Source: Acidimicrobiia bacterium (GTDB lineage: Bacteria; Acidobacteriota; Terriglobia; Bryobacterales; Bryobacteraceae). From it: DNA of 64,000 bases. This document shows, piece by piece, positions 4,112 to 64,000 of the stretch (positions within the stretch are counted from its first letter, which is position 1; every line of letters begins with the position of its first letter). The notes beneath the pieces are model-generated. The model was not told the DNA's origin and made no database searches. It saw only the letters and a list, made by a program, of their open reading frames with translations. Made by a program: the position numbers and the translations under genes. The DNA lies in NCBI GenBank assembly GCA_016871315.1, contig VFZE01000002.1, forward strand, positions 1 through 64,000, in the 5' to 3' direction.

Positions 4112-4330
4112 ATGAGCAAAGAAGACTGTATTGAAGTCACGGGCATTGTCGTGGAGAAGTTTCCCGCCGGTCAGTTCAGCGTGAAGCTGGACGCCGACAA
4201 GCTTGTGCTAGCGCACCTTGCCGGCAAGCTTCGCCGGAATCGCATTCGCGTTCTGGCAGGTGATCGCGTGACGGTCGAGATGTCGCCCTACGACTTGACC
4301 AAGGGCCGCATCACCTACAGGCACAAGTAG
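4112..4330 (+). CDS. infA: Translation initiation factor IF-1
   Basis: A 72-residue OB-fold protein matching bacterial IF-1 along its whole length: a starting [10 protein letters not shown], a central [19 protein letters not shown] and the signature [18 protein letters not shown]-1 binds the 30S A site together with IF-2 and IF-3 during initiation. The ATG at 4112 is preferred over the in-frame TTG at 4109 because it yields the standard N-terminus. A strong AAGGAGG at 4102-4108 precedes it, although the spacing of three bases is short. The gene is not in a ribosomal-protein operon here. It sits between an SDR and UDP-GlcNAc 2-epimerase, so it may be a free-standing or second copy. Confidence 0.95.
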
Positions 4331-4370
4331 CCGCCGGCCGGCCGGCTCGCGTTCGCGGCTGCGGCATCCC

Positions 4371-5495
4371 ATGAACGTTCTGTTTGTTCTCGGCACCCGG
4401 CCGGAAGCGATCAAGCTTTGCCCGGTCGTCCAATTCCTGCGAAAAGATCCTTCCCGGTTCTTGCCCCGGGTGTGTGTCACCGCACAGCATCGCCAGATGC
4501 TGGACCAGGTCCTTGAGGTTTTCGGCATCACCCCGGATCACGACCTGAATTTAATGAGGCCCGGCCAGACGCTGTCCTCCACGGCAGCGCGCGTCGTGGA
4601 GGGCCTGGCGCCGGTTCTGGAACAGGAAAAGCCGGATTTGGTGGTGGTGCAGGGGGACACCACGACAACCTTTGCGGGAGCGCTGGCTGGTTTCTATCAC
4701 CGTATCCCGGTCGCGCACGTCGAAGCAGGCTTGCGGACCGGCGACATCTATCAGCCTTTTCCCGAGGAAATGAACCGTCTCCTCACTACCCGACTCAGCG
4801 CGCTGCATTTTGCCGCCACCGAGTGGGCCGCGGACAATCTTCGTAAGGATGGTGTGGACGAGGAGCGCATCGCCGTCACAGGCAATACCGGCATCGATGC
4901 CGTTCTCTACGTAGCCGAGCGGTTGGAGAAAGGGTTGGAGCAAGCTCCGGCTTGGCCGCAGCTTGACCCCGGCCGCAAACTGATCGTCGTGACCGCGCAT
5001 CGCCGCGAGAATTTCGGGGCCGGGATGTTGAATCTCGCCGCCGCGCTGCGCGAGCTGGCCCGCCGGACGGATGTGCAGATCGTCTATCCGGTGCATCCGA
5101 ACCCCAGCGTCACCGGTCCAATCCGCCAGGCTTTATCCGGCGCCGACAACATCCTGCTGATCGAGCCACTCACTTATGTCCCGTTCGTGGATCTGATGCG
5201 GCGCTCCTATTTTCTGCTCACCGATTCCGGCGGCGTGCAGGAAGAGGCGCCATCGCTGGGCAAGCCGGTATTGGTGCTTCGCAATAAGACCGAGCGGCCG
5301 GAGGCGGTGGAGGCGGGCACGGTGAAGCTGGTGGGAACCGATACGGCGGTGATCCTGGACCATGCTCGCCAACTACTGGAAGATGGCGCGATCTACCGTC
5401 GGATGTCGCGCGTTCACAACCCTTACGGAGACGGGCGCTCAAGCGAGCGGATTTCCAGCCTAATCTATTCATTCCACTTGAAAAATAAATCTTGA
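4371..5495 (+). CDS. wecB: UDP-N-acetylglucosamine 2-epimerase (non-hydrolysing)
   Basis: A 374-residue GT-B-fold enzyme interconverting UDP-GlcNAc and UDP-ManNAc, the precursor for ManNAc-containing surface polymers. It starts with the family signature LFVLGTRPEAIK and contains QGDTTT (Asp96), VAHVEAGLRTGD (Glu118), PFPEEMNR (Glu132), VTAHRRENFG and LLTDSGGVQEE. These carry the conserved acidic residues and the His used by WecB/MnaA, and the length is that of WecB. It lies 40 bp after infA and runs with a 4-base frame overlap into the longest possible reading of the next gene. No other envelope-sugar gene is adjacent. The galE glycan operon lies about 20 kb away. Confidence 0.93.
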   Translation: MNVLFVLGTRPEAIKLCPVVQFLRKDPSRFLPRVCVTAQHRQMLDQVLEVFGITPDHDLNLMRPGQTLSSTAARVVEGLAPVLEQEKPDLVVVQGDTTTTFAGALAGFYHRIPVAHVEAGLRTGDIYQPFPEEMNRLLTTRLSALHFAATEWAADNLRKDGVDEERIAVTGNTGIDAVLYVAERLEKGLEQAPAWPQLDPGRKLIVVTAHRRENFGAGMLNLAAALRELARRTDVQIVYPVHPNPSVTGPIRQALSGADNILLIEPLTYVPFVDLMRRSYFLLTDSGGVQEEAPSLGKPVLVLRNKTERPEAVEAGTVKLVGTDTAVILDHARQLLEDGAIYRRMSRVHNPYGDGRSSERISSLIYSFHLKNKS

Positions 5496-5587
5496 AATTG
5501 GCCCCGGAATTCGCCTGTTTTTCGCCTCGAATCCGGCCGTCCTTTCCCGCTTCCGTTTATCTTCTCTTCCAGGAGGCTCCTATTTTC

Positions 5588-6730
5588 ATGAGGACCATTC
5601 ATCATACGACCCGTTCCCGAGGGGGATCGGGTGGGCAGGGCTCGGATCTGCATTCGCTGTTGTCAGAAAAGATTGTCGGACAGCCGGCCGTGATGAGCAG
5701 CATTCTCCCTTACGTCCAGATGTACCAGGCGGGTTTGGCGCCGGAAGGAAGACCGGTCGGCGTCTTTCTGCTGCTTGGACCAAGCGGAACGGGAAAGACA
5801 CGAACCGTGGAGGCGCTGGCCGGCGTGCTGCACGGCAACGAGAAGAGTCTCCTGAAGATCGACTGCGGCGAGTTTCAGATGGAGCATGAGGTGGCGAAGC
5901 TGATCGGCGCGCCGCCGGGCTATCTCGGCCACCGCGAGACGCAGCCGATGCTGACGCAGTCCAAGCTCAACTCGATCACCAGCGAGCGCAGCAGCCTGTC
6001 CATCATCCTTTTGGATGAAATCGAAAAGGCGGCGCCGTCGATGACCAGGCTGCTGCTGGGCGTGCTCGACAAAGCGATGCTGCGGCTGGGCGACAACAAT
6101 ACGGTCAACTTCGAGCGCAGCATCATTTTCATGACCAGCAATCTCGGCGCCAGGGAGATGGTGCGAGAGATCAACCCGGATTTTGGCTTCCAGGCCATGG
6201 CCGGCCTGCAGCCGCGCAACGTCGTCCGGAAGCTGGAAAGCATCGGCATGCACGCGATGCGGCGCAAGTTTACGCCGGAGTTTATTAATCGCATCGACGT
6301 CACGGTCACCTATCAGCCGCTGACCACGGAATCGCTGGCGGCGATTCTTGAACACCACTTGACCGACCTGCAGGCGCACATCGATAACCGTCTGCTGACC
6401 CGTGCCTTTGACATCGAGGTTTCCCCCGACGCACGCCAGTTTCTGTTGGATCGCGGCACCAGCCAGCAATACGGTGCTCGCGAGCTCAAGCGGACCATCC
6501 ACCGCAACCTGGTGCAGCCCATCGCGTCCTTGGTCGCGCAGGATCAGATCGTGCCCGGCGGCACGCTCTACGTGGAACTGTCTGAAGACGGGCAGCGCCT
6601 GGAGATGGAGTTTGATGAAGAACCGGTCCGTGCGCAGCCGGCGCTCGATGAACTCGCTCCGGTCCGCTCAGTGAGGGGAGGCAGGCCGTCCAGTACCGAC
6701 GGGCCCAGGCGTCCGCTCAGGGCGGCCTGA
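5588..6730 (+). CDS. ClpB-type single-module AAA+ ATPase
   Basis: A 380-residue ATPase with one AAA+ module of the ClpA/ClpB second-domain class. Walker A GPSGTGKT is at residues 64-71, Walker B ILLDEIEK at about 140-147, sensor 1 TSN at 183-185, and the sensor-2 motif YGARELKR lies near residue 305. The C-terminal small ClpB-D2-like domain is followed by a basic, Pro/Arg-rich tail of about 40 residues. It lacks the Clp N-domain, the first AAA module and the coiled-coil M-domain, so it is not a normal ClpB. A role as an unfoldase is inferred. The start is ATG 5588 with AGGAGG at 5571-5576. The frame is open upstream to TTG 5492, but that stretch looks non-coding. Confidence 0.85.
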   Translation: MRTIHHTTRSRGGSGGQGSDLHSLLSEKIVGQPAVMSSILPYVQMYQAGLAPEGRPVGVFLLLGPSGTGKTRTVEALAGVLHGNEKSLLKIDCGEFQMEHEVAKLIGAPPGYLGHRETQPMLTQSKLNSITSERSSLSIILLDEIEKAAPSMTRLLLGVLDKAMLRLGDNNTVNFERSIIFMTSNLGAREMVREINPDFGFQAMAGLQPRNVVRKLESIGMHAMRRKFTPEFINRIDVTVTYQPLTTESLAAILEHHLTDLQAHIDNRLLTRAFDIEVSPDARQFLLDRGTSQQYGARELKRTIHRNLVQPIASLVAQDQIVPGGTLYVELSEDGQRLEMEFDEEPVRAQPALDELAPVRSVRGGRPSSTDGPRRPLRAA

Positions 6731-53499: not shown

Positions 53500-54369
53500 C
53501 TACACGCTGACGACGGGGCAGGGGGAGTTGCGGATGATGGCGTAGGCGTTGGCGCGGAGGCGGCCAAATACGCCGGCGACGGAGCCGCGGCCGATGACGA
53601 GCAGGTCCGCCTTGCGCTCGCGCGCCAGACCGTCGACAACGTAGGGGACATCGCCGGCTTCCACCATGATGTCGGCTTCGCCGCCTAGTTTTTGGAGCAG
53701 ATCAGTGAGGCGCGCGGTGGCCTGGCGGCGCAACACGCCGCGCCAGTTGGGGTCGAAGTACTCCCCGGCGGAGCCTTCCAGACTGGGCGTGGCATGAACA
53801 AGGATGAGCTTGGCCTTCTGAGTGCGGGCGAATTCGAGAGCCCATCCGATAGCTTTTTCGCTTTCCGGGCCGAGATCGACGGCGGCCATGACGGTGGAGA
53901 AGTGAATTCTGTCCACGGCGGGAGCATCTTCCATGTGGACGCCGGTCCAGACGGGGCAGTGGGCGTCGTGGAGGATCTTGGTGGTGACCGAGCCGAGGAT
54001 GAAGCGGCGGAAGGGACCGTATCCATGCGTGGAGATGACGATGAGGTCGGCGCCTTTCTCGGCGAACTCACAGATCCTGCGGGCAGGGTCACCTTGGAGG
54101 ATGAGACGTTCGGCTTGGAGTTCAGGCAGATGCTCACTCAAGTGGCGTACCAATTCCTCCTGAACATTCTCTTTACGCGTTCCGTACCACTCGCCGAGGG
54201 CGAGCGCGCCGCCTTCCAGGGCGGTGAATTCGTAATGCGGCGGCGGCAACACGTGAAGCATGGTGACCTTGGAGCCGTAATGCTCGGCCAAGGCCTCCGC
54301 ATAGCGCGCGGCGCCGGTGGAGCGGGCGGAAAAGTCCACGGGGACAAGGATTCTGGACATCGAGAACAT
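53500..54369 (-). CDS. Tandem-domain universal stress protein
   Basis: A 289-residue cytoplasmic protein with two UspA domains. The first starts SRILVPVDFSARS and contains DLIVISTHGYGPFRRFILGSV, the ATP-binding G-x2-G-x9-G(S/T) pattern. The second starts FSTVMAAVDLGPES and contains DLLVIGRGSVAGVFGRLRAN and NSPCPVVSV. Tandem Usp proteins support survival under low oxygen or starvation. The ATG at 54369 has GGAGG six bases upstream. It follows the NapC-type cytochrome gene by 27 bp on the same strand, so it may be co-transcribed with the electron-transfer genes and respond to respiratory stress. Confidence 0.9.
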   Translation of the reverse strand: MFSMSRILVPVDFSARSTGAARYAEALAEHYGSKVTMLHVLPPPHYEFTALEGGALALGEWYGTRKENVQEELVRHLSEHLPELQAERLILQGDPARRICEFAEKGADLIVISTHGYGPFRRFILGSVTTKILHDAHCPVWTGVHMEDAPAVDRIHFSTVMAAVDLGPESEKAIGWALEFARTQKAKLILVHATPSLEGSAGEYFDPNWRGVLRRQATARLTDLLQKLGGEADIMVEAGDVPYVVDGLARERKADLLVIGRGSVAGVFGRLRANAYAIIRNSPCPVVSV

Positions 54370-54396: not shown

Positions 54397-55821
54397 TCAT
54401 TGTACTCCGAGATCGCTGAGGATCTTCGGAATGGTTTCTTCCATCGCAAGCAGCACGTGGCAGTTGTTGCAATCCATCGTAATGGTTTTGCCGCCGGCTG
54501 AGGCGCGTTCATCATGACAGCGGAAACAACCGGGAAATTCATTATGGCCGATGTGGTTAGGATAAGTTCCCCAGGTAACCTTCATTTCGGGAAAGACGTT
54601 GCGGTTAAAGATCTCGACCAGTGCCTGGGCGGCGCGCTCGATTTCGGCGGATTTTGACTTGAACAGATCCGGATGTTGTTTGCGGTAGTGATCGAGCCAG
54701 CGCTGGCGGATGGCGGAACTGGCCTCGCTGTTGGAGGAGTAGGTGGCTTGCAGAAGCTCGAGCGCTGTCTTTTTGGCAAAGGGCAGGGAAGGAGAGATGC
54801 GGCCGGCGGCCATGGCGCGGTTGACGGCGGTGTCAGGCGATTCAAAGGAGTGGCTGGGCCGGGTGTGGCAATCCATGCAGTCCATGAGGCGTGTTTCCAT
54901 GGAGCCGGTTTGTTTCTCCTCGACGCCATCGGCGAGGTAGAGGCGGCGGTCCGCCCCATTGCGGCTGTATTCGACCCAGGGAATCTTCTGGCGCTGGGGA
55001 TCGGCGGCGCGATAGCGGATCTCGACTCCTTCGGCGAGGTGGGCGCGGTGAATGCCGGGCCCGGAAGCAGTTCCGGAGAGCCGCATGAAGAGGACGTTCT
55101 TGGAGTGGGTGTTGGTCTCGTCATCGGCGAAGATGTCGGTGACGCGGAGCCTGTCGGCGCCGAACTTCTGCGGCCAGTGGCAGCCTTCGCAAGTTTCGCG
55201 GGCGGGGCGGAGATCGTAGACGGGCGTAGGGATGGGCTTGGAGTAGGTGTTGAAGGCGACGGCGAAGACCTGGCGGACGCCGCTCAGCTTGCTGCGGACG
55301 AACCAGTCAGCGCCGGGACCGATGTGGCACTTGGAGCACTCCACGCGCGAGTGGGGCGAGTCCTGATAGGCGGCATATTCCGGCTGCATCACGCTGTGGC
55401 AAGTGGTTCCGCAGAAGGCGACGCTGTCCATGTAAGTGACGGCGCGGTAGCTGAGCTGGCTGGCGATCATGATGTTGGCTCCGGTGGTGACGGCGAGGAA
55501 AACCAGGAGCCGGCGGAGCGAGGGGTTGTTGAGATCGAGCGAAGGGAGTTTGTCGGGGAAAGTGCCGCGTTTGCGCGCCTGACGGAGGCGCAGAGAGAGT
55601 CCCACCGGGACCAGCGCGAGGCCGGAGAAAAAAACACCGGGGAGGATGAGGAAGGAGAGGATGCCGAGGTAAGGGTGATCGGGGTTTCCTTGCCATGTAC
55701 TGGGGAGCAGGAACAGCCAGAAGACAGTGGCGGTGGTAAGCAACGCGATGCCGAGAAAGCTGATCCAGTTGTTGGAAAGGAAGATTACCGGCAGCAGCCA
55801 CTCCAGGAGTCTATTCTTCAT
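54397..55821 (-). CDS. NapC/NirT-type inner-membrane multiheme cytochrome c (ImcH-like layout)
   Basis: A 474-residue cytochrome. Three N-terminal membrane helices (about residues 17-40, 50-75 and 108-130) precede a periplasmic domain with six heme-attachment motifs. The first is the unusual CGTTCH, which has three residues between the Cys; the others are CSKCH, CEGCH, CMDCH, CFRCH and CNNCH. Three helices before a NapC/NirT domain is the layout of ImcH, a quinol-oxidising cytochrome needed for metal respiration in Geobacter; NapC and NrfH have one helix. It should take electrons from menaquinol to periplasmic carriers. The start overlaps the end of the cytochrome b/c fusion gene by 11 bp. 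The assignment to NapC/NirT is firm; the ImcH-like role is inferred. Confidence 0.87.
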   Translation of the reverse strand: MKNRLLEWLLPVIFLSNNWISFLGIALLTTATVFWLFLLPSTWQGNPDHPYLGILSFLILPGVFFSGLALVPVGLSLRLRQARKRGTFPDKLPSLDLNNPSLRRLLVFLAVTTGANIMIASQLSYRAVTYMDSVAFCGTTCHSVMQPEYAAYQDSPHSRVECSKCHIGPGADWFVRSKLSGVRQVFAVAFNTYSKPIPTPVYDLRPARETCEGCHWPQKFGADRLRVTDIFADDETNTHSKNVLFMRLSGTASGPGIHRAHLAEGVEIRYRAADPQRQKIPWVEYSRNGADRRLYLADGVEEKQTGSMETRLMDCMDCHTRPSHSFESPDTAVNRAMAAGRISPSLPFAKKTALELLQATYSSNSEASSAIRQRWLDHYRKQHPDLFKSKSAEIERAAQALVEIFNRNVFPEMKVTWGTYPNHIGHNEFPGCFRCHDERASAGGKTITMDCNNCHVLLAMEETIPKILSDLGVQ

Positions 55822-57466
55822 TCGCCGGTGATTCTCCTTTCGAATGCGGGTTGACAGGACGGGCGGAACGTCCGGTGAGCCAGGCCATGTCCATCGGGTA
55901 GACGTCGGGATCGAAGATCACGAAATAGAAATGCCAGACGAGGATGGCGAGGGCGGCCAGGATGGCCTCGTAGAGGTGAAGCGTGAGAGCGAGGTCGAGG
56001 GTCCATTTGGGGAAGTATTCGAGCATGAGATTGTTGGCCCAAAGCATGATCCCGGTAAGTCCCATCAGTGCGGTGCCCCAAACTACGGCCCAGTACTCCG
56101 CCTTTTCGATATAGCTGTGCGAGGAGCGGTGGGGCATGTCGCGCCGCAGACCGAGGCTGTGGAGTGTGCCTTGAACGGCTTCCGGCAGATCCTGGCGGCG
56201 CGGCAGCATGTGCATCCAATGCTCGCGCAGGCGGCGGCTGAGCAAGAGGGAGGCGAGATGGGCGACGGAGGCGGCGATCATGACGGCGCCGGCGATGCGG
56301 TGAATGATGCCGCGGGCTTCGCCAAGCGGAATGGCCCACCACTGTTCGGGATATTTGAGCGCGAAGCCGGTCCAGACAAGCACGAGGAAACTGACGGCGA
56401 GGACGGCATGTTGGATGCGTTCCCAGAAGAGCATGCGTTCGGCGCCGGAGGGGCGAACCGCAGCGGCGGGCAGGGCGGGGGAGAAACGGATGCGGCGGAG
56501 TTTACGGAGCCAGTCGCCGCCATTGTGGAGAAGCATCCAGCCGATGAGGACAGGGATAAGGACTTGGTAGAAGAGACGGACGAAGCGGATGGGCATTGCT
56601 TCGCCGTTATCCATCGGTGCGTGGATCGGGCCCAGCGCGAAACGTCGTCCGGCGCCGGGATGGCACTGGCCGCAGGTTTGGGCCAGATGGTCCGGGTGCG
56701 TCATGGACTTCGGGTTGGAGGATGGCAGCACGTTGTGGTAGCCGTGGCAGGAGGCGCAATTGGCCACGGTCTGCGAACCACCGCGTGCTGCCAAGCCGTG
56801 AAAGGACTCGTCGAAGCTGGTCAGCCTGTCTTGCGGCAAGCCGAAACGGCGCATGAGGCGGATGTCGCCGTGGCAGCGGCCGCAGGTCTCCCGGATCTGA
56901 CGTGGATTGGTGGTGGAGGCGCGTTCGCTGCTGGGGAGGATGGAATGCTCGCCGTGGCAATCGGTACAGACGGGTGCGTTGGGGACGCCTTGCATGGCGG
57001 CGGCGCCGTGAACGCTGGCCTGGAACTGGGCGAGGACTTCGGTGTGGCACATGCCGCAGGTGTTGGGGACTTCCTTGTGGAATTCGATGTTGCGGGCGCG
57101 GGTGACCTCGTGAGCGGCGCCGTGGCAGGTGGCGCAGTCCGGGGCGGAGGCATCCCCCTGCCGGAGTTTCTGGCCGTGCACGCTGACGCCATGCTGAGCC
57201 GACTGAGCGGCGTGGCAGGAGCCGCAGGCGGGTTTTGGCGCTGTTGGCGGATGGGGATACTCTTCGCGCTGAGGGTGGCATTTGGCGCACACGACCTTGG
57301 CGTGGGTGGAGGTGGAGAGCTTGGCGGCGACGTCATGACAACCGGCGCAGGACTCCGCGGATTGCGCCAATGCGGCGGGCGGCCACCAGAAGAGGGCGGC
57401 CGCCAGCAGCCAGACAGCGTGGGACAGGCGGAGAAGTGCGGCACGCCGTCCGGCATCCTGTTTCAT
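55811..57466 (-). CDS. Nine-heme cytochrome c fused to cytochrome b (CbcL-like layout)
   Basis: A 551-residue inner-membrane protein. After a signal sequence (LLAAALFWWPPAALA) the periplasmic part carries nine CxxCH motifs: CAGCH, CAKCH, CGSCH, CATCH, CGMCH, CTDCH, CGRCH, CASCH and CGQCH. The C-terminal 250 residues form about five helices of a cytochrome b561/HydC-FdnI type, with candidate heme b His in IQHAVLAVSF, IIHRIAG, SVAHLAS and LHLYEA. This fusion of nine c-hemes with a b-type domain is the layout of CbcL of Geobacter sulfurreducens, a quinol dehydrogenase used with low-potential acceptors. ATG 57466 follows GGAG. It sits in a reverse operon just before the NapC-type gene. Confidence 0.87.
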   Translation of the reverse strand: MKQDAGRRAALLRLSHAVWLLAAALFWWPPAALAQSAESCAGCHDVAAKLSTSTHAKVVCAKCHPQREEYPHPPTAPKPACGSCHAAQSAQHGVSVHGQKLRQGDASAPDCATCHGAAHEVTRARNIEFHKEVPNTCGMCHTEVLAQFQASVHGAAAMQGVPNAPVCTDCHGEHSILPSSERASTTNPRQIRETCGRCHGDIRLMRRFGLPQDRLTSFDESFHGLAARGGSQTVANCASCHGYHNVLPSSNPKSMTHPDHLAQTCGQCHPGAGRRFALGPIHAPMDNGEAMPIRFVRLFYQVLIPVLIGWMLLHNGGDWLRKLRRIRFSPALPAAAVRPSGAERMLFWERIQHAVLAVSFLVLVWTGFALKYPEQWWAIPLGEARGIIHRIAGAVMIAASVAHLASLLLSRRLREHWMHMLPRRQDLPEAVQGTLHSLGLRRDMPHRSSHSYIEKAEYWAVVWGTALMGLTGIMLWANNLMLEYFPKWTLDLALTLHLYEAILAALAILVWHFYFVIFDPDVYPMDMAWLTGRSARPVNPHSKGESPANEE

Positions 57467-57480
57467 CACTGTCACTCCGG

Positions 57481-57789
57481 TCAGCGAGTCAGCAACTCGA
57501 CTTCCGCGGAAGCGGCGTTCCTTGCGACCCAGCTGGCATAGACATAGGCCGTGGCCAGTACGAGGCCGTAGACGAAGGCAATGACGGTGAAGATCTTGCC
57601 CCAGCGGTCGATGAACAGCAGCTTGTTTGCGACCTGGTTCTGCTGCGCGACGAGGTCCGTGGCGCCGTCGCCGATGTGCAGCATGTCGTCTTCATGGCGC
57701 GAGACAAGTTTGCGCCAGATGGCGAACACGCAGACGATGATGGCGATTACGGCCCAGCCAACCACGAAGGGAACGAGATTTGTATTCAT
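57481..57789 (-). CDS. Small two-helix membrane protein, unknown
   Basis: A 102-residue protein starting at ATG 57789, five bases after AGGAGG. Two hydrophobic helices (about 7-26, VPFVVGWAVIAIIVCVFAIW, and 62-84) are separated by a charged stretch (RKLVSRHEDDMLHIGDGATD). Six-heme and cytochrome b genes follow at once, so it is likely a small subunit or assembly factor of that inner-membrane complex. I do not recognise the family. It lacks Cys and has only one His, so it should not bind heme c itself. Confidence 0.7.
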   Translation of the reverse strand: MNTNLVPFVVGWAVIAIIVCVFAIWRKLVSRHEDDMLHIGDGATDLVAQQNQVANKLLFIDRWGKIFTVIAFVYGLVLATAYVYASWVARNAASAEVELLTR

Positions 57790-57808
57790 GTGCACCTCCT
57801 TGTATCAA

Positions 57809-58204
57809 TCAGCACACCGCCTGCAAACGGAGCTTTACGCCGCCAGGCGGCGGTGCAAGCAGCTTCCGGTCAAAGCGCTTACCGGTAGCCTCTTCCAACG
57901 CGTCGACAACGGGGATCAGGTATGCGTCCAGCGCGCACCTGACCTGTTTGCGCTCTTCGCAGGTTCCGTCCCGGGCCTGTGATTCGCAGGCGGAGCAGAC
58001 CTGCCGGCGCAAGGCAAGAACATAGTCACGGATATCGTCGCTATCGACCGAATGGACGGCGGCGGCAACGCGCGGGAAGAGGCGGAACAGCGCGCAGCCA
58101 CCGGGCTCATCGCGGCCGCATTCGCCGGTTTCCGGGCGGACCGAGCAGATCGAACAGATCCGGTCGCGGACGATGGTTTCCAGTTCTTCCAGTGTCCTGT
58201 ACAT
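57809..58204 (-). CDS. Cys-rich protein with duplicated C-x2-C-x8-C-x7-C motif, unknown
   Basis: A 131-residue soluble protein with no signal peptide. It contains two copies, 53 residues apart, of exactly the same cysteine spacing: Cys17-x2-Cys20-x8-Cys29-x7-Cys37 and Cys70-x2-Cys73-x8-Cys82-x7-Cys90. Each follows a similar helix (VRDRICSICS and LRRQVCSACE). One more Cys is the last residue. Each motif could hold a [4Fe-4S] cluster or a zinc ion. The exact duplication indicates two equivalent sites. It lies in the cytochrome operon between a receiver-like gene and the small membrane protein, so a cytoplasmic redox carrier or redox sensor is plausible. I do not know a named family. Confidence 0.75.
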   Translation of the reverse strand: MYRTLEELETIVRDRICSICSVRPETGECGRDEPGGCALFRLFPRVAAAVHSVDSDDIRDYVLALRRQVCSACESQARDGTCEERKQVRCALDAYLIPVVDALEEATGKRFDRKLLAPPPGGVKLRLQAVC

Positions 58205-58226
58205 GGCGCGCCTCCATTGTGAGCGG

Positions 58227-58595
58227 CTAGGCTTCGGACGGCTTCGCTTTCGCCGCCCTCAGCCTGGCCGCCAGGATTGCCAATACGACCGTGGAAATGG
58301 GGTCTCGATCGTACACCACCGAGTGAACGCCAGCTTCCCATGCCTCGGCAAGGTGTTTGGACATGAGCCCGGGCTCGTCGTGGGTCACCAACACCACGCG
58401 CTCGGGTTGATCGAGCGGATGAGGCAGGCGGCCGAGATGATCGGTGTCGACGACCAGGACCCCGCCGGAGTTGAGGTCCGGGGAATCCACGCAAATCACA
58501 TCACAGGAGGCGGAGGAGGCAAGCATCCGGCAAAGCGCCGAGCGGAACGGCGTGTCGGATAAAGCGATCTGGATCTTGTCGGCATCCTTCGCCAT
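58227..58595 (-). CDS. Divergent receiver-like protein
   Basis: A 122-residue protein with the alternating strand-helix pattern of a response-regulator receiver: KIQIALSDTPFRSALCRML, then GGVLVVDTDHLG, RVVLVTHDEPG, and AWEAGVHSVVYDRDPISTVV. The usual pair of acidic residues after strand 1 is weak (a single Asp), and the place of the phospho-acceptor Asp holds VVDTD. The conserved Thr and Lys seem shifted to VTHDE and the VYDRD region. It has no output domain. It may be a pseudo-receiver that binds a partner, perhaps tied to the sigma54 activator encoded nearby. Its position in the cytochrome operon is the main functional hint. Confidence 0.55.
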   Translation of the reverse strand: MAKDADKIQIALSDTPFRSALCRMLASSASCDVICVDSPDLNSGGVLVVDTDHLGRLPHPLDQPERVVLVTHDEPGLMSKHLAEAWEAGVHSVVYDRDPISTVVLAILAARLRAAKAKPSEA

Positions 58596-58621
58596 CTGCT
58601 TGCCTCAAGCCTGCCGGCTCT

Positions 58622-58840
58622 TTACTTCTTCTCAGGGGCTTTGTAGCCATCCAAGGTCTTGTGCTTCTCGTAGTACTTGCCTGCGTCGTTGAGTTCCTTG
58701 GATTTCGCCGAGACGTGGCAGGCCGTGCACGGCTTTTTCTCTTTCTTCGTGTATTCCGCTGTGGCGAGTGAAAGCTGGGTGTTCAAAAGAAGTCCCGTGG
58801 TGAGCATCGCGAGCGGGATGAGGTATTTGAGCAGTTTCAT
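58622..58840 (-). CDS. Small periplasmic monoheme cytochrome c
   Basis: A 72-residue protein starting at ATG 58840 behind GGGAGG. A signal peptide (KLLKYLIPLAMLTTGLLLNT) leads to a mature part of about 45 residues with one heme site (CTACH at 38-42) and many Lys (KKEKK, KHKTLDGYKAPEKK). Its tiny size leaves little fold around the heme and no clear distal ligand, although His59 is possible. It could be a mobile electron carrier for the multiheme proteins downstream. It is the first gene of the reverse operon that runs to the NapC-type cytochrome and lies divergent from the sigma54 activator. Confidence 0.8.
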   Translation of the reverse strand: MKLLKYLIPLAMLTTGLLLNTQLSLATAEYTKKEKKPCTACHVSAKSKELNDAGKYYEKHKTLDGYKAPEKK

Positions 58841-58860
58841 AACGCCTCCCAAGGAGAGAA

Positions 58861-58878
58861 GTGCAATTTGGGGTCCAG
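58861..58878 (-). promoter_or_regulatory. Candidate sigma54 (-24/-12) promoter for the cytochrome operon
   Basis: Reverse strand CTGGACCCCAAATTGCAC has GG and GC elements with the required ten-base gap and a TTGCA match at -12. The -24 half (TGGACCC against TGGCACG) is imperfect. The predicted start near 58851 would leave a very short leader that begins at the ribosome-binding site. A sigma54 activator gene is divergent from it. The 58841-59061 gap holds no gene. Confidence 0.35.
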
Positions 58879-59027
58879 AAGTTAAGTACCCGCCAAATGG
58901 TGGAAAACAGGCCGGAAAACGGCGGAAGTGGGGCAAATGGCGTAGCAGGAATGGGTGGCAGAGGCCCAACGGGGCAGGAAGGAGGTGGGTGAAACGGCAC
59001 AATTTTAGATTTGAAGATCTGAAACTA

Positions 59028-59036
59028 TGCTATAAT
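59028..59036 (+). promoter_or_regulatory. Extended -10 promoter of the sigma54 activator gene
   Basis: TGCTATAAT at 59028-59036 is a perfect extended -10 box, 25 bases before ATG 59062. Directly upstream, AGATTTGAAGATCT (59008-59021 region) is an imperfect palindrome that could be an operator. A GGGGGG ribosome-binding site lies just before the start. Confidence 0.5.
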
Positions 59037-59061
59037 TTGGTGTACAGAAAGGGGGGCAGTC

Positions 59062-60477
59062 ATGAACACCGGTTGGCCTTTGGCAGTTGAAGAAGAAGAG
59101 GCGCGGGAGGACAATATTGGCAGTAAGCTCATGCCGCGGCTCAACTACGAATGGGAACAAACGAACTTGTTGGAAGCGGTTTTCGACCATATTTCCGATG
59201 CCCTGGTTATCTACGATCAGCAGCGCATCATCACCGGAGTGAACCGCGCCGCGGAGAAGCTGTTTGGACTGGGCGCTGAGGAAATGATCGGACGCGAGTG
59301 CGCGGAGGTTTTCCGCTGCGGGATCTGCGAGCCGGGCTGCGGCGTGCTGGTCAGCATCGATGAATCGCGCGAAGCCGGAAGCGGGACGGTGCGGCTGCAC
59401 ACCGACAACGGCCGGGAGCGGCTGGCGGTGATCCGCACTTCGCCGATCACCAGCGCGGCGGGCGAGCTGATCGGCTCGGTGGCGACGATCCGGGACGTGA
59501 CCGAGGAGGTGGAGCCGCAGCGGCGTGAGGTGATCGCCGAGTCGACAGCGATGCAGGATCTGATGCGGTTCGTGCGGAGGGTGGCGGCAAGCGAGGCGAC
59601 GACCATTCTGTTGGAGGGGGAGAACGGAACCGGTAAGGACATGGTCGCCAAGACGCTGCACTATCAGAGCCTGCGCCATGCCGAGCCGTTCATCGCGATC
59701 AACTGCGCGGCGATTCCGGAGACGCTGCTGGAGAGCGAATTGTTCGGCTATGAGAAAGGCGCGTTCACGGATGCGCGGTCGCAGAAGCGCGGCATTTTCG
59801 AGCTGGCCGATAAGGGGACATTGTTTCTCGATGAAATCGGCGAGATCCCGCTGATGCTGCAAGCCAAGCTGCTGCGGGTGTTGGAGGACCAGAGTTTCCG
59901 TCGGCTGGGCGGGCTCCGCGATATTCAATTGGATCTGCGCGTGATCGCGGCGACGAACAAAAGTCTGCGCGAGGCGGTGCGCGAGGGCGCATTCCGGCAG
60001 GACCTCTATTACAGGCTCAACGTGATCCACATCCTGATTCCACCGCTGCGGGAGCGTCCGGAGGATATCGTGCCGCTGGCGCGGTTTTTCATCGACCACT
60101 ACAACCGGAAGTTCAAGCGGCAGATCGAAGGGATTACGCCGGAAGCATCGCGGATGCTGATGGGACATAGCTGGCCTGGGAACGTGCGGGAGGTGCGCAA
60201 CGCGATCGAGCGGGCGATGATTCTGGAGGAGACGCCGGAGATCACGCCGGGCAGCCTGCCGTTGTCGCTCACGCGTCCGGCGCTGGTGGTGGCGGCCGGC
60301 GCCGATTCCGGGGCGCCCGTGAATCTGGGTTTGGGCGTTTCGCTGGAAGAGAACGAGAAGCGGCTTTTGCAGCAGGCGCTGGAGGAGACGGGCGGGAATC
60401 AGACAAAGGCGGCGAAGCTGCTGAAGATCACGCGCGACACGCTGCGGTACAAGATGAAGAAGCACGGGCTGCGGTGA
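59062..60477 (+). CDS. Sigma54-dependent transcriptional activator with PAS sensor
   Basis: A 471-residue NtrC-family regulator. A PAS domain (about 35-150) contains an unusual Cys cluster: [16 protein letters not shown] holds four Cys within 16 residues, suggesting a metal, Fe-S or redox switch. The AAA+ domain has Walker [10 protein letters not shown], the sigma54-contact loop GAFTDA (a variant of GAFTGA), Walker [11 protein letters not shown], and the arginine-rich [19 protein letters not shown] Fis-type helix-turn-helix ([20 protein letters not shown]) ends the protein. It has no receiver domain, so the PAS senses directly. Divergent from the cytochrome operon, which it probably controls. 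It converges with the HExxH gene (6 bp between stops). Confidence 0.92.
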
Positions 60478-60483
60478 GCCCGG

Positions 60484-61452
60484 CTAGCGGATGCCTGGCA
60501 GCAGCGCTGCCTCGGCGGCGGAGATTTCCCTGCTCCGGTACAAGTCAGCGCACTGACGGCAGAGGCCGTGCTCTAGCCGCCAGGAAGGGAAATCGGCCTG
60601 AATCAGGTTCAAGACATTCTGGTCAATCTCAGCGCCAGGGGGTGTGAGCTCGAAAGTGGGGAAGCGGCAAATGGGACAGGGAAGGGCTGCCGGCGGGCGG
60701 GACGTTTCACCAGCGATGTTTGTTGCCGGGAGTAGAGCCATCTCGACAAGGCCGGCGTGTGTGAGAGCATCGGCGCCAAAGACGGCGTCAAAGCGGGCGG
60801 CGGCGTCAGGGGGGGAGCCGAAGGCACGGGTAAAATCAGCAAGGCGCCGCCGGCGGATAGCCTGCGGGAGAGTGCCTCGGCGGTGGAGGCGGCCGTCGAT
60901 CCAGGCGTCCCAGAGGACGCGGTAGCGCTCGCGCTGCAGGTTAGCGGTGAGAGGATCGGCTGGGGAGGCGGGCCAAACGGGCGAATAGGCGAATGCCGGA
61001 TCCAGCATGTCGGCGACGTGCATCAATTCGTGGCGAAGCCAGTAAAGGGCTTCGGGGTGGGGAAGAAGGCGTGCGGCCGTCAGTCGGATCACGACGGCTC
61101 CGGCGGGTTCCAGCTGGTTGGGTTGAGGGGCGCGCCAGGGGTGGAAGTCGGCGCCTTCCTGGGAAGGATGAAGCGCGGGGAACAGACAGAGCCGTTGGGC
61201 GCGGGCCGGCAGAGCGGGCAACTCGGCCAAGGCCTCGCTGACCAGCCGCCCGAGGGCGAGCCGGGCGAACCAGGAGACATGAAAGCGCTGGAAGGCGGCT
61301 TCCTTTTGTGCGGGGTCCTGCAGGAGATAGAGGCGCTCGCGGGCGGCGTGAAACGCGGTTTCCAGAGGGTCGCCGGAGATGCGGAGAAAGACGGCCTGTT
61401 CCACCAGGAGCGGGTCGTATTCGATGGGGACGCCGGTGTCCGCGGAGTTCAC
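60484..61452 (-). CDS. Unknown protein with HExxH and zinc-ribbon motifs
   Basis: A 322-residue soluble protein starting at GTG 61452, overlapping the chaperone stop (GTGA). Near residue 175 is LRHELMHVAD, a zinc-peptidase-like H-E-x-x-H followed by Asp five residues on. The last 70 residues form a zinc ribbon: CPICRFPTFE and, 40 residues later, GLCRQCADLYR. The region between contains helices and no signal peptide is seen. The pairing with a TorD-like gene suggests a maturation or quality-control factor for a redox enzyme. FdhE also combines a formate-dehydrogenase accessory role with Cys pairs, but I see no real homology to it. The function is unknown and a peptidase role is only suggested by the motif. 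Confidence 0.7.
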   Translation of the reverse strand: MNSADTGVPIEYDPLLVEQAVFLRISGDPLETAFHAARERLYLLQDPAQKEAAFQRFHVSWFARLALGRLVSEALAELPALPARAQRLCLFPALHPSQEGADFHPWRAPQPNQLEPAGAVVIRLTAARLLPHPEALYWLRHELMHVADMLDPAFAYSPVWPASPADPLTANLQRERYRVLWDAWIDGRLHRRGTLPQAIRRRRLADFTRAFGSPPDAAARFDAVFGADALTHAGLVEMALLPATNIAGETSRPPAALPCPICRFPTFELTPPGAEIDQNVLNLIQADFPSWRLEHGLCRQCADLYRSREISAAEAALLPGIR

Positions 61453-62063
61453 GATGGGAGCCTCAACTGGACCAGTTCCTCCGATCCGCCGCAAGCCATG
61501 GGCGCCGGACCGTCGTCTTCGGGGCGGAGCCGCAGCATGGCGGGCCCGGGCGGCACGTCGAAGTGGCGGCACAGGTGGGCGAGGAAGGTGGACAGGAAGC
61601 GGCCCAACTCCCGATAGAAGCCGACCGGGTCATGCTCCTGCAACAGGGATGCGAAAGCGGAGGCAAAGCGGCCCAAGTGATCGCGCAGAAAAAGGCGGGC
61701 GGCCTTTTGAGTTTCCTGAAGGCTCGCCTGGTCGCCGGTCTCCGCGGCGAAAGCCTCCTTGCGGCAGAGGAACCCGAGGAACTCGAGTTCGCAACAGGCG
61801 TGGTCGGCGCGCTCGCGGCCATGACGCGCCAGCTGAAGGCCGAAAGCGCGGTAGAAACCTGAAATGGCGGCGAGCTGGCGCGGCTGCTCGAAGATTCCCT
61901 GATTGCCATATTCTGTTCCATAGGGGCAGACCCTGCCGCGCGCGGTGTGGCCGAAGATCCATGTTTGGGAAGACTGCCAGCCATCCAGGGTGAGCGGTTC
62001 GATTGCACTCAGCCAACCGTCCAACGCGGCGGCGAGGCTGATGGAGTCATCCGGCGGCGCCAA
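61449..62063 (-). CDS. TorD/NarJ-like redox-enzyme maturation chaperone
   Basis: A 204-residue all-helical protein. The block YRAFGLQLARHGRERADHACCELEFLGFLCRKEAF, seen here in pieces (RERADHACCELEFLGFL), is the classic TorD/DmsD/NarJ signature with E-R-x-D-H and E-x-E-F. Such chaperones bind the Tat signal or apo-subunit of molybdenum enzymes in the cytoplasm. An extra Cys pair replaces the common hydrophobics. The frame has only a TTG start (62063). The in-frame codons just upstream (RQEAGNSATFGSL) align well with the family N-terminus but contain no start codon, so the N-terminus may be truncated or use a rare start. No molybdoenzyme lies in the window; its client may be beyond the right edge. 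Confidence 0.75.
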   Translation of the reverse strand: MAPPDDSISLAAALDGWLSAIEPLTLDGWQSSQTWIFGHTARGRVCPYGTEYGNQGIFEQPRQLAAISGFYRAFGLQLARHGRERADHACCELEFLGFLCRKEAFAAETGDQASLQETQKAARLFLRDHLGRFASAFASLLQEHDPVGFYRELGRFLSTFLAHLCRHFDVPPGPAMLRLRPEDDGPAPMACGGSEELVQLRLPS

Positions 62064-62155
62064 CAGCGACCCAAATGTGGCGCTATTTCCCGCTTCCTGG
62101 CGTTGTTGATCTGACGTAAGGAATGGGCACGTTGGTGGCTAAACGAGAGCGTGGC

Positions 62156-63256
62156 CTAACGCTTCTGGTTCAAGTAGGCGGCCAGGTCGGCCATTTCGCT
62201 GTCTTTGAAGCGTGGCCAGGCGATGTTCTGTTTGATCATCTGCTCGATCATCGCCGGGCCGTGTTTCCAAAGCACCGAGACGAGCGAGATGGAGTTGACG
62301 GGGCCGCGGCCGGCGAGAGAAGGGGCGGTGGGGGATGCGCCTTCATGGCACTGTGCGCAGCCTTTCTTGCGGAACGTGCTTTCGCCGCGGCGCGCGTTGC
62401 CGGGATCCTCGAAGAACTGAATCGACCAGAGGTAGCCGACCAACATGCGCATGTCGGGGAGCGTGATGGAGGGCGGCAGCTGCAGCATCTTGGGGGAGTG
62501 GTTCCACATGGAGGCGGCGAAATCGGTCATCGTGCGGCTGCGCAGCCGGGCGTCCAGCCGCAGCGAGCCCTGATGACAGCCTGAGCAGCCCTTGCTTTGG
62601 AAAAGGCTTTCGCCGCTCTCCGGCGGCGCCGGAGAAAAGGCCTCCTGGCCGGGCTTGCGGTCAGGCAAGTTGCGCAGGTAGACCATCAGGTCAGTGAGTT
62701 CCTGGGCGCTGATGCGGGGCCAATCGATCTTGTTCTTCGTCATCGCCTGGTACATCTGCGGGCCGTGGGTCCACATGGCGTGGGAGAGGGCGATGGAATC
62801 GGTGAGGGCGGCCCAGGAGCTGACGGCAGGACCGGTACCTGTGCCGCCGGGGTCGAGGCTGTGGCAGTCGGCGCAGGCCTTTCTGTAAAAGTACTGGCGG
62901 CCGCGGCCGGCGTCGCCCGGCTTCTCAAAATAGCGGAAAGCGTAGAGGTAGGCGTAGAGGTCGGCGGCTTGCTGGGTATCGAGTTGGGGCTTGGCGATGC
63001 CGGCCTGCTCCAGGGCGCGCCACATCACGGGCGCATGGTTCCACATCAGCGAGGCGAGCAGCGAGGGGGTGTAGGCGCGGGCGGAGCGCTTGCCGAGGTC
63101 GGGGGCGGACCCGCCGCCTTCGCCCTGGACGCTATGGCAGACGATGCATTTCTGGGATTGAAACAGGGCGGCGCCGCGGGCGGCGTCGCCGGGAATGGGC
63201 ACCGTGGCGGCGGCGAGGGTTACGGCGGCGAGTGCGGTAAAAAATGGAATACGCAT
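62156..63256 (-). CDS. Periplasmic cytochrome c with four tandem monoheme domains
   Basis: A 366-residue protein with a signal peptide (MRIPFFTALAAVTLAAATVP) and four class I cytochrome c domains of about 85 residues. Heme sites are CIVCH, CADCH, CSGCH and CAQCH. Each domain also repeats a W-x-H-x-P-x-M motif (MWNHAPVM, MWTHGPQM, MWNHSPKM, LWKHGPAM) whose Met or His would be the distal heme ligand. The strict repetition shows tandem duplication of one domain. It is downstream of the outer-membrane barrel gene (9 bp gap) and could carry electrons between the inner membrane and the barrel. ATG 63256 has GGAGGG in front. Chaperone and HExxH genes follow. Confidence 0.88.
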   Translation of the reverse strand: MRIPFFTALAAVTLAAATVPIPGDAARGAALFQSQKCIVCHSVQGEGGGSAPDLGKRSARAYTPSLLASLMWNHAPVMWRALEQAGIAKPQLDTQQAADLYAYLYAFRYFEKPGDAGRGRQYFYRKACADCHSLDPGGTGTGPAVSSWAALTDSIALSHAMWTHGPQMYQAMTKNKIDWPRISAQELTDLMVYLRNLPDRKPGQEAFSPAPPESGESLFQSKGCSGCHQGSLRLDARLRSRTMTDFAASMWNHSPKMLQLPPSITLPDMRMLVGYLWSIQFFEDPGNARRGESTFRKKGCAQCHEGASPTAPSLAGRGPVNSISLVSVLWKHGPAMIEQMIKQNIAWPRFKDSEMADLAAYLNQKR

Positions 63257-63265
63257 GATGCCCTC

Positions 63266-64000
63266 CTATCTGGAAATGCGCAGTCCGCTAACGAACTGGT
63301 GTGTGCGGAAGCCTTCCACCATGAAGAAGGCCTGGTTCATGCCGTACCAGCGCCATTCGCCGTATAGGCTGACGCCCTTCGAAACCGGCAGGATGGCGCG
63401 GCCGATGGGTTGCCAGTAATCGGTGGGGCGGCTTCCGCTGGAGATGAACAGGGAACCGCCGGCTTCGATGAGCGGCTGGAACTGCGCCGAGCAGGGAATG
63501 CGGAACTGGGTCAGAGCGGAAGCGGTGTGTCCATTGTCGCGATAGAAGGAGCGCGCCGGGCGGAGGTTCTGCGGCGTAAGGAAATCGATGTCGGAGCGCC
63601 AGGTGGAGCGGGTATAGTCGCCGAGGATGCTGAAGTACTTCGCGTCGCCCGGGCGCCACTCGAGGGTGATGCCGGCGGACCGGGTTTGAAATTCGTAGTC
63701 GATGCCCTGGGCGGGATTGCGGTTATCGAGGAAGAGGTAAGTTGCTCCGAGGCGCAACGAACTCATCAACTGCCAGCGGAGGCGGGCGCGCAATTGGTGG
63801 TAATTCTGCAGACTGGTGCGGAAGTAGGCCTTGTCGCCGGGCGAGCCTTCATATTCGACGTTGGCGGCGACGGCTGTCGAAGGCCGGTAGTTGACGGCGG
63901 CGAGCCCGACATGGCGGCGGATCTCGCCTTGGCCCGGGCCGGAGGCGAGGAAGGAGGCAGGCGCGATCGCGTCGCCCCAGACGAATCGGTGGCCGCCACG
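63266..64000 (-). CDS. Outer-membrane beta-barrel protein, 5' end outside the window
   Basis: The reverse frame is open from the window edge to the stop at 63266, giving the last 244 residues. The sequence alternates polar and hydrophobic residues in strands about ten long with aromatic girdles (YRPSTAVAANVEYEG, LRLGATYLFLDNR, AGITLEWRPGD, GVSLYGEWRWYG) and ends SGLRISR. This is the pattern of a transmembrane barrel, with large strand number and no plug in the visible part. Being directly upstream of a tandem-heme cytochrome suggests a porin of a porin-cytochrome conduit (MtrB/PioB-like role), but family membership cannot be proven from the fragment. Confidence 0.6.
   Translation of the reverse strand, partial: RGGHRFVWGDAIAPASFLASGPGQGEIRRHVGLAAVNYRPSTAVAANVEYEGSPGDKAYFRTSLQNYHQLRARLRWQLMSSLRLGATYLFLDNRNPAQGIDYEFQTRSAGITLEWRPGDAKYFSILGDYTRSTWRSDIDFLTPQNLRPARSFYRDNGHTASALTQFRIPCSAQFQPLIEAGGSLFISSGSRPTDYWQPIGRAILPVSKGVSLYGEWRWYGMNQAFFMVEGFRTHQFVSGLRISR

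Follow-up and report, generated by a model that had tools for sequence, protein, structure and literature searches.

CYS8, a conserved small protein with two four-cysteine modules, probably an optional metal-thiolate accessory of a respiratory operon in Acidobacteriota

The stretch of 64,000 nucleotides analyzed here (hereafter, the window) encodes CYS8, a small protein with two cysteine quartets that is a real ORF and belongs to a conserved family, which matches no Pfam or NCBIfam model and carries no name. Taken together, the sequence and the gene neighborhood indicate that CYS8 is probably an accessory protein with metal-thiolate sites that belongs to a respiratory operon. The favored, still tentative, reading is that of an optional cytoplasmic accessory sensor or adaptor, with metal-thiolate sites more likely to hold Fe-S than zinc, that would be encoded in a sigma-54-controlled operon for extracellular electron transfer; the metal, the sensing and the partners are the conjectural parts. 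The gene and its two sites are as follows.

57809-58204, minus strand: CYS8, ATG-initiated ORF of 131 amino acids with two Cys4 modules (family of 42 sequences)
58094-58156, minus strand: CYS8 Cys4 site 1, residues 17-37, C-x2-C-x8-C-x7-C, all four cysteines in 42 of 42 sequences
57935-57997, minus strand: CYS8 Cys4 site 2, residues 70-90, C-x2-C-x8-C-x7-C, all four cysteines in 37 of 42 sequences

The two quartets (cysteines 17, 20, 29 and 37, and 70, 73, 82 and 90) start 53 residues apart, exactly as a preliminary description of this DNA had it, and random placement of 9 cysteines in 131 residues yields at least one such quartet in 249 of 200,000 draws and two in none. The ninth cysteine, residue 131, lies outside the conserved columns. 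Hydropathy reveals neither a signal peptide, in agreement with the earlier claim, nor a transmembrane segment (the highest Kyte-Doolittle mean over 19 residues is 1.06), so that CYS8 combines the general attributes of a metal-thiolate protein, clustered conserved cysteines and no export signal. The gene starts 22 bases past the end of its upstream neighbor and stops 13 bases ahead of the next gene, all three being oriented in the same direction.

The family set includes 42 copies from 41 loci, with L061 omitted as a duplicate of L017. The wider genome scan, which employed the single CYS8 sequence and covered close relatives, detected two loci, in a Terriglobia MAG (L017, 65%) and in a Candidatus Solibacter MAG (L018, 60%). 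The profile searches, for which the profile was built from 9 rows, covered Acidobacteriota: of 200 genomes sampled from the window's order, 33 were found to carry CYS8, as were 7 of 396 (E <= 0.001), including its own, in an even draw across the phylum. The other six of these all come from one other class, in which 38 genomes were searched and no further CYS8 genome turned up. A single-sequence search of the same 396 genomes produced matches in 15 (E <= 0.01, own genome included), eight of which were treated as chance because the profile search retained 7 only. Neither a tblastn search of plasmids nor a scan of viral contigs with the CYS8 query produced a match.

Among the 42 aligned copies, cysteines 1 to 6 and Arg85 are invariant, the seventh cysteine is present in 41 and the eighth in 37; thus, seven of the eight are retained in at least 41 copies, and homologues that mostly lack the cysteines, the finding that would have undermined the preliminary description, were not encountered. 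The five copies with an incomplete site 2 are that of L058 and those of a divergent group (L090-L093). The spacing is nearly as rigid: in site 1, x8, x7 in 40 copies and x8, x6 in 2; in site 2, among the 37 complete copies, the exact x8, x7 in 32, x9, x7 in 3 and x8, x6 in 2. The quartets are separated by 53 residues in 36 copies, 52 in 4 and 54 in 2. One locus (L076, 163-507 and 1055-1426) carries two CYS8 genes of different subtypes side by side on opposite strands, one of which resembles the L086 and L087 copies.

The second quartet had been described as an exact duplication of the first; this holds for the spacing but not for the sequence, the two halves being 26% identical over 43 columns. 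When compared as profiles with hhalign, the halves match each other with a probability of 98.3, an E-value of 1.6e-14 and a score of 61.2, against a mean of 9.6 and a maximum of 15.0 in 60 column-shuffled controls; judging by this profile similarity, they share one origin, that is, an internal duplication of a unit that consists of a helix, CxxC, ~8 residues, GxC, 7 residues, C and a second helix. The further claim that the two sites are equivalent is borne out by this common origin and qualified by the damage to site 2 in 5 of the 42 copies. The AlphaFold2 model, derived from 3 sequences and of low confidence (pLDDT 60.7), suggests a four-helix layout, with helices (residues 5-20, 38-52, 58-77 and 82-107) around the cysteines; a Foldseek search with this model retrieved nothing at E <= 0.001. 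The weak matches to copper storage proteins of the Csp kind (E 2.5 or higher) were disregarded, and both Csp-type copper storage and disulfides were set aside on the reasoning that the cysteines fall mostly in loops or near helix ends of a poor model and that the protein has no export signal.

The searches of Pfam, NCBIfam and PDB with the CYS8 protein and with the alignment of 42 sequences gave no significant match, the best E-value of the profile against PDB chains being 0.15. The best Pfam match of CYS8 is DUF2284 (PF10050, predicted metal-binding; residues 65-106), membership in which was rejected (E 0.031; 14.5 bits, where the cut-off is 25; E <= 0.1 in 2 of the 42 members). Across the 42 members, Fer4-type families are absent from the 21 Pfam families listed at E <= 0.1; the weak matches are scattered, the commonest being zinc fingers (12 and 11 members, E up to 0.1). 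With a best E-value of 0.0076, these do not place CYS8 in a known zinc-finger family, membership in which would have told against the preliminary description. The spacing itself has a precedent. In the portion of the source at hand, the plant B-box (BBX) zinc finger is defined as C-X2-C-X8-C-X7-C-X2-C-X4-H-X8-H (PMC3485221), so that its first four cysteines are spaced exactly as in both halves of CYS8, and BBX proteins, too, can have two domains. The literature in which this spacing appears, as represented by titles and the opening lines of abstracts, deals with plant B-box/CONSTANS-like genes or their microproteins. The assertion that no family with this spacing is known has, therefore, to be narrowed: the spacing is known, but CYS8 has no significant match to any family. 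We rejected the possibility that CYS8 is a B-box because the remaining C-X2-C-X4-H-X8-H part is present in 0 of the 42 sequences; furthermore, CYS8 differs from the B-box in its prokaryotic respiratory context and in the lack of significant sequence similarity.

This spacing, the weak zinc-finger matches and the arrangement of two compact sites in a small protein that is helical in the low-confidence model are all compatible with two structural zinc sites, in which case CYS8 would be a redox-inert interaction adaptor for the assembly or regulation of a membrane complex. We regard this as a serious possibility although, on balance, an unlikely one, given that the other B-box ligands are missing throughout the family, that the zinc-finger matches are so weak, and that the operon is a redox operon. 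The preference for an Fe-S center over zinc has only two grounds, the redox setting of the gene and the fact that site 2 tolerates the loss of one ligand, and it is a weak preference because the B-box uses the same spacing as a zinc ligand set.

The operon around CYS8 includes the following genes of the window.

58622-58843, minus strand: sCYT, small cytochrome c-like protein with one CxxCH, first operon gene (cluster of 15 loci, alignment)
58227-58595, minus strand: RECV, stand-alone receiver-like protein of 122 amino acids, directly upstream of CYS8 (AlphaFold2 and Foldseek)
57481-57795, minus strand: sTM, small protein in which two hydrophobic segments are visible by eye and an EDDxxH loop is conserved (alignment of 32 sequences)
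55811-57475, minus strand: CbcL-like cytochrome, 9 CxxCH and a b561 membrane domain (Pfam Cytochrome_C7, Ni_hydr_CYTB)
54397-55821, minus strand: ImcH-like NapC/NirT cytochrome, 5 CxxCH and 1 CxxxCH (Pfam Cytochrom_NNT above cut-off)
53500-54369, minus strand: tandem universal stress protein (Usp), last operon gene (Pfam Usp, E 2e-49, two stretches)
59062-60477, plus strand: SIG54, divergent sigma-54 activator of PAS-AAA+-Fis architecture (Pfam Sigma54_activat, E 2.7e-69, PAS, HTH_8)

A neighbor map of the 41 loci with their 42 CYS8 copies was drawn from those stop-to-stop ORFs for which blastp found counterparts in other loci (one of its clusters, CytCB, also includes MtrA-like and 15-19-haem proteins). 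On this map, the complete gene order runs SIG54 (divergent), sCYT, RECV, CYS8, sTM, CbcL-like, ImcH-like, Usp, with individual genes missing in some loci, and CYS8 sits between RECV and sTM wherever both occur. As read from the map, a CbcL-like and/or ImcH-like gene follows CYS8 in the same orientation, separated from it by no more than sTM, in 26 of the 41 loci; the operon is cut short or devoid of cytochromes in three (L062, L070 and L017), and another seven are of other kinds or uninformative (L056, L058, L059, L060, L086, L091 and L092), with an ORF containing at least two CxxCH, in the stretches examined, only in L092, about 5 kb from CYS8. The preliminary description held that CYS8 travels with quinol oxidases, and these 26 loci support this; in the other direction, the cytochromes usually occur without CYS8, and CYS8 is found beside DMSO-reductase-like genes in five loci and beside neither in others. 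In L017 (6998-7698), sTM is followed by Usp, with no CbcL-like or ImcH-like gene at this place and CYS8 kept; in genome G566, to which this contig seems to belong, an ImcH-like gene is located on a different contig.

The main products of the operon share the architecture of Geobacter CbcL and ImcH, the comparison being one of architecture. CbcL is described, in the sections of the source available, as a single chain with nine haem motifs and a di-haem b membrane domain (PMC9129911), and ImcH, likewise, as a NapC/NirT-type protein with 6-10 haem motifs (PMC6295460). The protein encoded at 55811-57475 has 9 CxxCH motifs, Ni_hydr_CYTB above cut-off and, by profile, a b-type membrane domain, and that encoded at 54397-55821 has the NapC/NirT domain and a motif count within the ImcH range. 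These same sections do not mention a CYS8-like protein (PMC9129911, PMC6295460), nor do the titles and opening lines of abstracts of the papers retrieved on CbcL/ImcH operons and Acidobacteriota. Extracellular electron transfer is the function suggested for the operon by this gene resemblance. As for the small partners, RECV appears receiver-like by its fold: Foldseek retrieves response-regulator receivers for its model (pLDDT 64.9, from 2 sequences), with AmiR as the best match (E 2.3e-4); there is no profile match above cut-off. sCYT has an export signal as judged by eye and no Pfam match, and sTM has no family match above cut-off. The conserved loop of sTM reads EDDxxH...DKWGK, and the sTM gene occurs both in operons that have CYS8 and in operons that lack it.

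Two additional elements were found, one in the gap that separates SIG54 from the operon and one in the SIG54 PAS domain.

58862-58877, minus strand: sigma-54 type -24/-12 site, TGGACCCCAAATTGCA (pattern match in the window)
59299-59340, plus strand: C-x5-C-x2-C-x3-C in the PAS domain of SIG54, each cysteine in 21 of 23 SIG54 sequences

The pattern TGG-N7-ATTGC(A/T), which fits the -24/-12 consensus, is present in 30 of the 37 intergenic regions that separate SIG54 from the operon, with CYS8-plus and CYS8-minus loci pooled, and on the opposite strand in none of the 37; the regions that lack it are those of L078, L129, L131, L134, L135, L136 and L138. In shuffled regions, the mean is 0.245 and the maximum 3 of 37, figures that pertain to shuffles preserving base composition only and to loci that are related and hence not independent. 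The pattern was fixed after inspection of the sites, with one base allowed to be A or G; this base is A in every match. The window contains a second match (6137-6152), and two matches per whole window are within chance expectation (17 of 100 shuffles), so that the case rests on the recurrence across loci. Because sites of this type recur between SIG54 and the first gene, it is very likely that sigma-54, together with the divergent activator, drives the operon and CYS8 with it. The cysteine motif in the PAS domain makes the activator itself a candidate metal or redox sensor.

The window ends within an MtrCAB block, of which it contains the following part.

62156-63256, minus strand: tetra-cytochrome c protein beside the MtrB-like gene (Pfam Cytochrom_C, 4 stretches)
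63269-64000, minus strand: 3' part of the MtrB-like porin gene (by position and appearance only, no family match)

Immediately past the end of the window, the same strand (L094) carries the rest of the MtrB-like gene, a decahaem MtrA-like gene and an OmcA/MtrC-family gene (4150-6207; TIGR03507, 510 bits against a cut-off of 209.3), the MtrA-like and MtrC-like proteins having 10 CxxCH each. A gene that, by eye, resembles pyruvate:ferredoxin oxidoreductase is located just past the MtrC-like gene. The CbcL-like and ImcH-like genes thus lie within about 10 kb of the MtrCAB block (54397-63256, and 1266-6207 of L094), and the map places CbcL-like and/or ImcH-like genes on the same stretch as MtrCAB also in L018, L072 and L081. 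In a survey that we cite from the sections at hand, the mtrCAB clusters of Group 5 Acidobacteriia are reported to have a tetrahaem cytochrome beside mtrB and no putative inner-membrane quinone oxidoreductase encoded nearby (PMC8805035). The present cluster is like those in having MtrCAB with a tetrahaem cytochrome next to mtrB and unlike them, as far as those sections go, in that CbcL-like and ImcH-like genes adjoin it (PMC8805035).

Within the order of the window, the ImcH-like gene is far more widespread than CYS8, being present in 139 of the 200 genomes, and the two are associated: it accompanies CYS8 in 33 of 33 genomes, compared with 106 of the 167 others (Fisher p 2e-6, an optimistic value because the genomes are related). 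In 20 CYS8-minus loci, which were picked by hand from the ImcH-like list and are not a random sample, both the CbcL-like and the ImcH-like genes are kept in 17, and the ORFs of these loci contain no CYS8 recognizable by a 42-row profile even at E <= 1. The gap between RECV and sTM, in the 12 CYS8-minus loci mapped with both, is at most about 165 bases, compared with 396 for CYS8. On a tree of 39 ImcH-like rows, built by a quick method and leaving out rows shorter than 400 amino acids and the CYS8-minus loci L132, L141, L142 and L143, the presence of CYS8 requires 7 changes, at least 4 of them forced by the starred branches; label shuffling gives a mean of 12.7 changes, with 1 of 500 shuffles as low. 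The CYS8 and ImcH-like distances in 23 loci, with the L076(-) copy omitted, are correlated (Mantel r 0.70; 0 of 2000 permutations as high). The recurrent position of CYS8 and its co-inheritance with the ImcH-like gene point to an old operon member that has been repeatedly lost, the tree itself being blind to gain versus loss.

This pattern bears directly on the notion that CYS8 is a ferredoxin-like carrier with two clusters that supplies electrons to, or withdraws them from, the CbcL-like/ImcH-like complex on the cytoplasmic side. Two equivalent sites, an operon shared with cytochromes of the quinol-oxidase type and the pyruvate:ferredoxin oxidoreductase-like gene past the MtrC-like gene would suit such a carrier. 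Yet, ImcH-like genomes without CYS8 outnumber those with it, both cytochromes do without it in most of the picked loci, site 2 is incomplete in part of the family, and the profile searches gave no ferredoxin match, so that we consider a carrier improbable. More generally, CYS8 can hardly be essential for electron transfer because it is so often missing beside both cytochromes, and a required subunit is an unlikely role for it.

Type II DMSO-reductase-like genes adjoin CYS8 in five of the 41 loci: in L055 and L057, CYS8 points towards them from the opposite strand; in L090 and L093, it is co-directional with them; the fifth locus is L087. The label denotes the best-scoring family, with scores below the curated NCBIfam cut-offs (TIGR03479, 341.8 against 984.75 bits; TIGR03478, 249.3 against 480.7), and the neighbor names come from one representative per cluster. 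Genes for Rrf2, CRP-like or PAS-LuxR proteins and for a TorD/NarJ-like chaperone accompany CYS8 in these contexts. In the window, a TorD/NarJ-like gene (61449-62063) adjoins a gene for a conserved protein with CPIC and CRQC motifs and no family match (60484-61572), and the same pair recurs in the DMSO-reductase-like loci L055 and L057. The occurrence of CYS8 beside two unrelated respiratory systems, one of them with a chaperone of its own, could signify a maturation factor or chaperone for the insertion of haem, Fe-S or molybdenum cofactor; this is a still fainter prospect than a carrier, considering that CYS8 is missing from the same 17 picked loci, which would need the same maturation, and that no assembly factor is among the weak matches listed. 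A spurious ORF with a chance cysteine pattern is scarcely credible in the face of 42 sequences with conserved cysteine spacing and a recurrent place.

The role of sensor or adaptor is favored because it accommodates the conserved Cys4 sites, the regulatory company and the dispensability of CYS8; the neighbors by themselves are no proof of sensing. Under this reading, CYS8 would be a soluble cytoplasmic protein of duplicated helix-Cys4-helix modules, each with one metal center, and would be co-produced with the quinol-oxidase cytochromes of the CbcL-like and ImcH-like types. The protein might sense the redox, O2/NO or metal status of the cytoplasm and pass it on to the signaling parts nearby, namely the PAS-Cys4 sigma-54 activator, the receiver-like RECV and the loop of sTM, and this signaling might tune the expression or the activity of electron exit. 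Rrf2/NsrR, FNR and Wbl, bacterial redox regulators based on Fe-S or thiols, are small, cytoplasmic, Cys-rich and found near respiratory genes. CYS8 is like them in all these respects, and a parallel in function is conceivable; unlike them, it has no DNA-binding domain that we found, and no significant similarity to them. In L059 (7350-8144) and L060 (1873-2631), the CYS8 domain is fused to an N-terminal extension of ~150 residues, with no multihaem ORF in the stretch examined; the L091 stretch, too, contains no ORF with at least two CxxCH. The fused copies, which lack multihaem neighbors, speak against a purely respiratory role.

To our knowledge, the bacterial decision to export electrons is poorly understood beyond Shewanella and Geobacter. 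The present locus is a compact, testable regulon in Acidobacteriota that comprises an activator with a Cys4 motif in its PAS domain, promoter-like sites, a receiver-like protein and a protein with a doubled Cys4 module, and, given that closely similar operons occur naturally with and without CYS8, what the latter contributes can be tested directly. In this locus, moreover, CbcL-like and ImcH-like genes stand beside MtrCAB, in a group for which the survey, in the sections cited, reported them missing (PMC8805035). In a bolder and rather speculative version of the sensor reading, CYS8 would be a new two-cluster Fe-S sensor that couples cytoplasmic redox to the opening of extracellular electron transfer through RECV and the PAS-Cys4 activator, and that has been re-used on DMSO-reductase-like systems. 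If so, CYS8 would serve Acidobacteriota as a portable gauge of cytoplasmic redox state for their anaerobic respiration.
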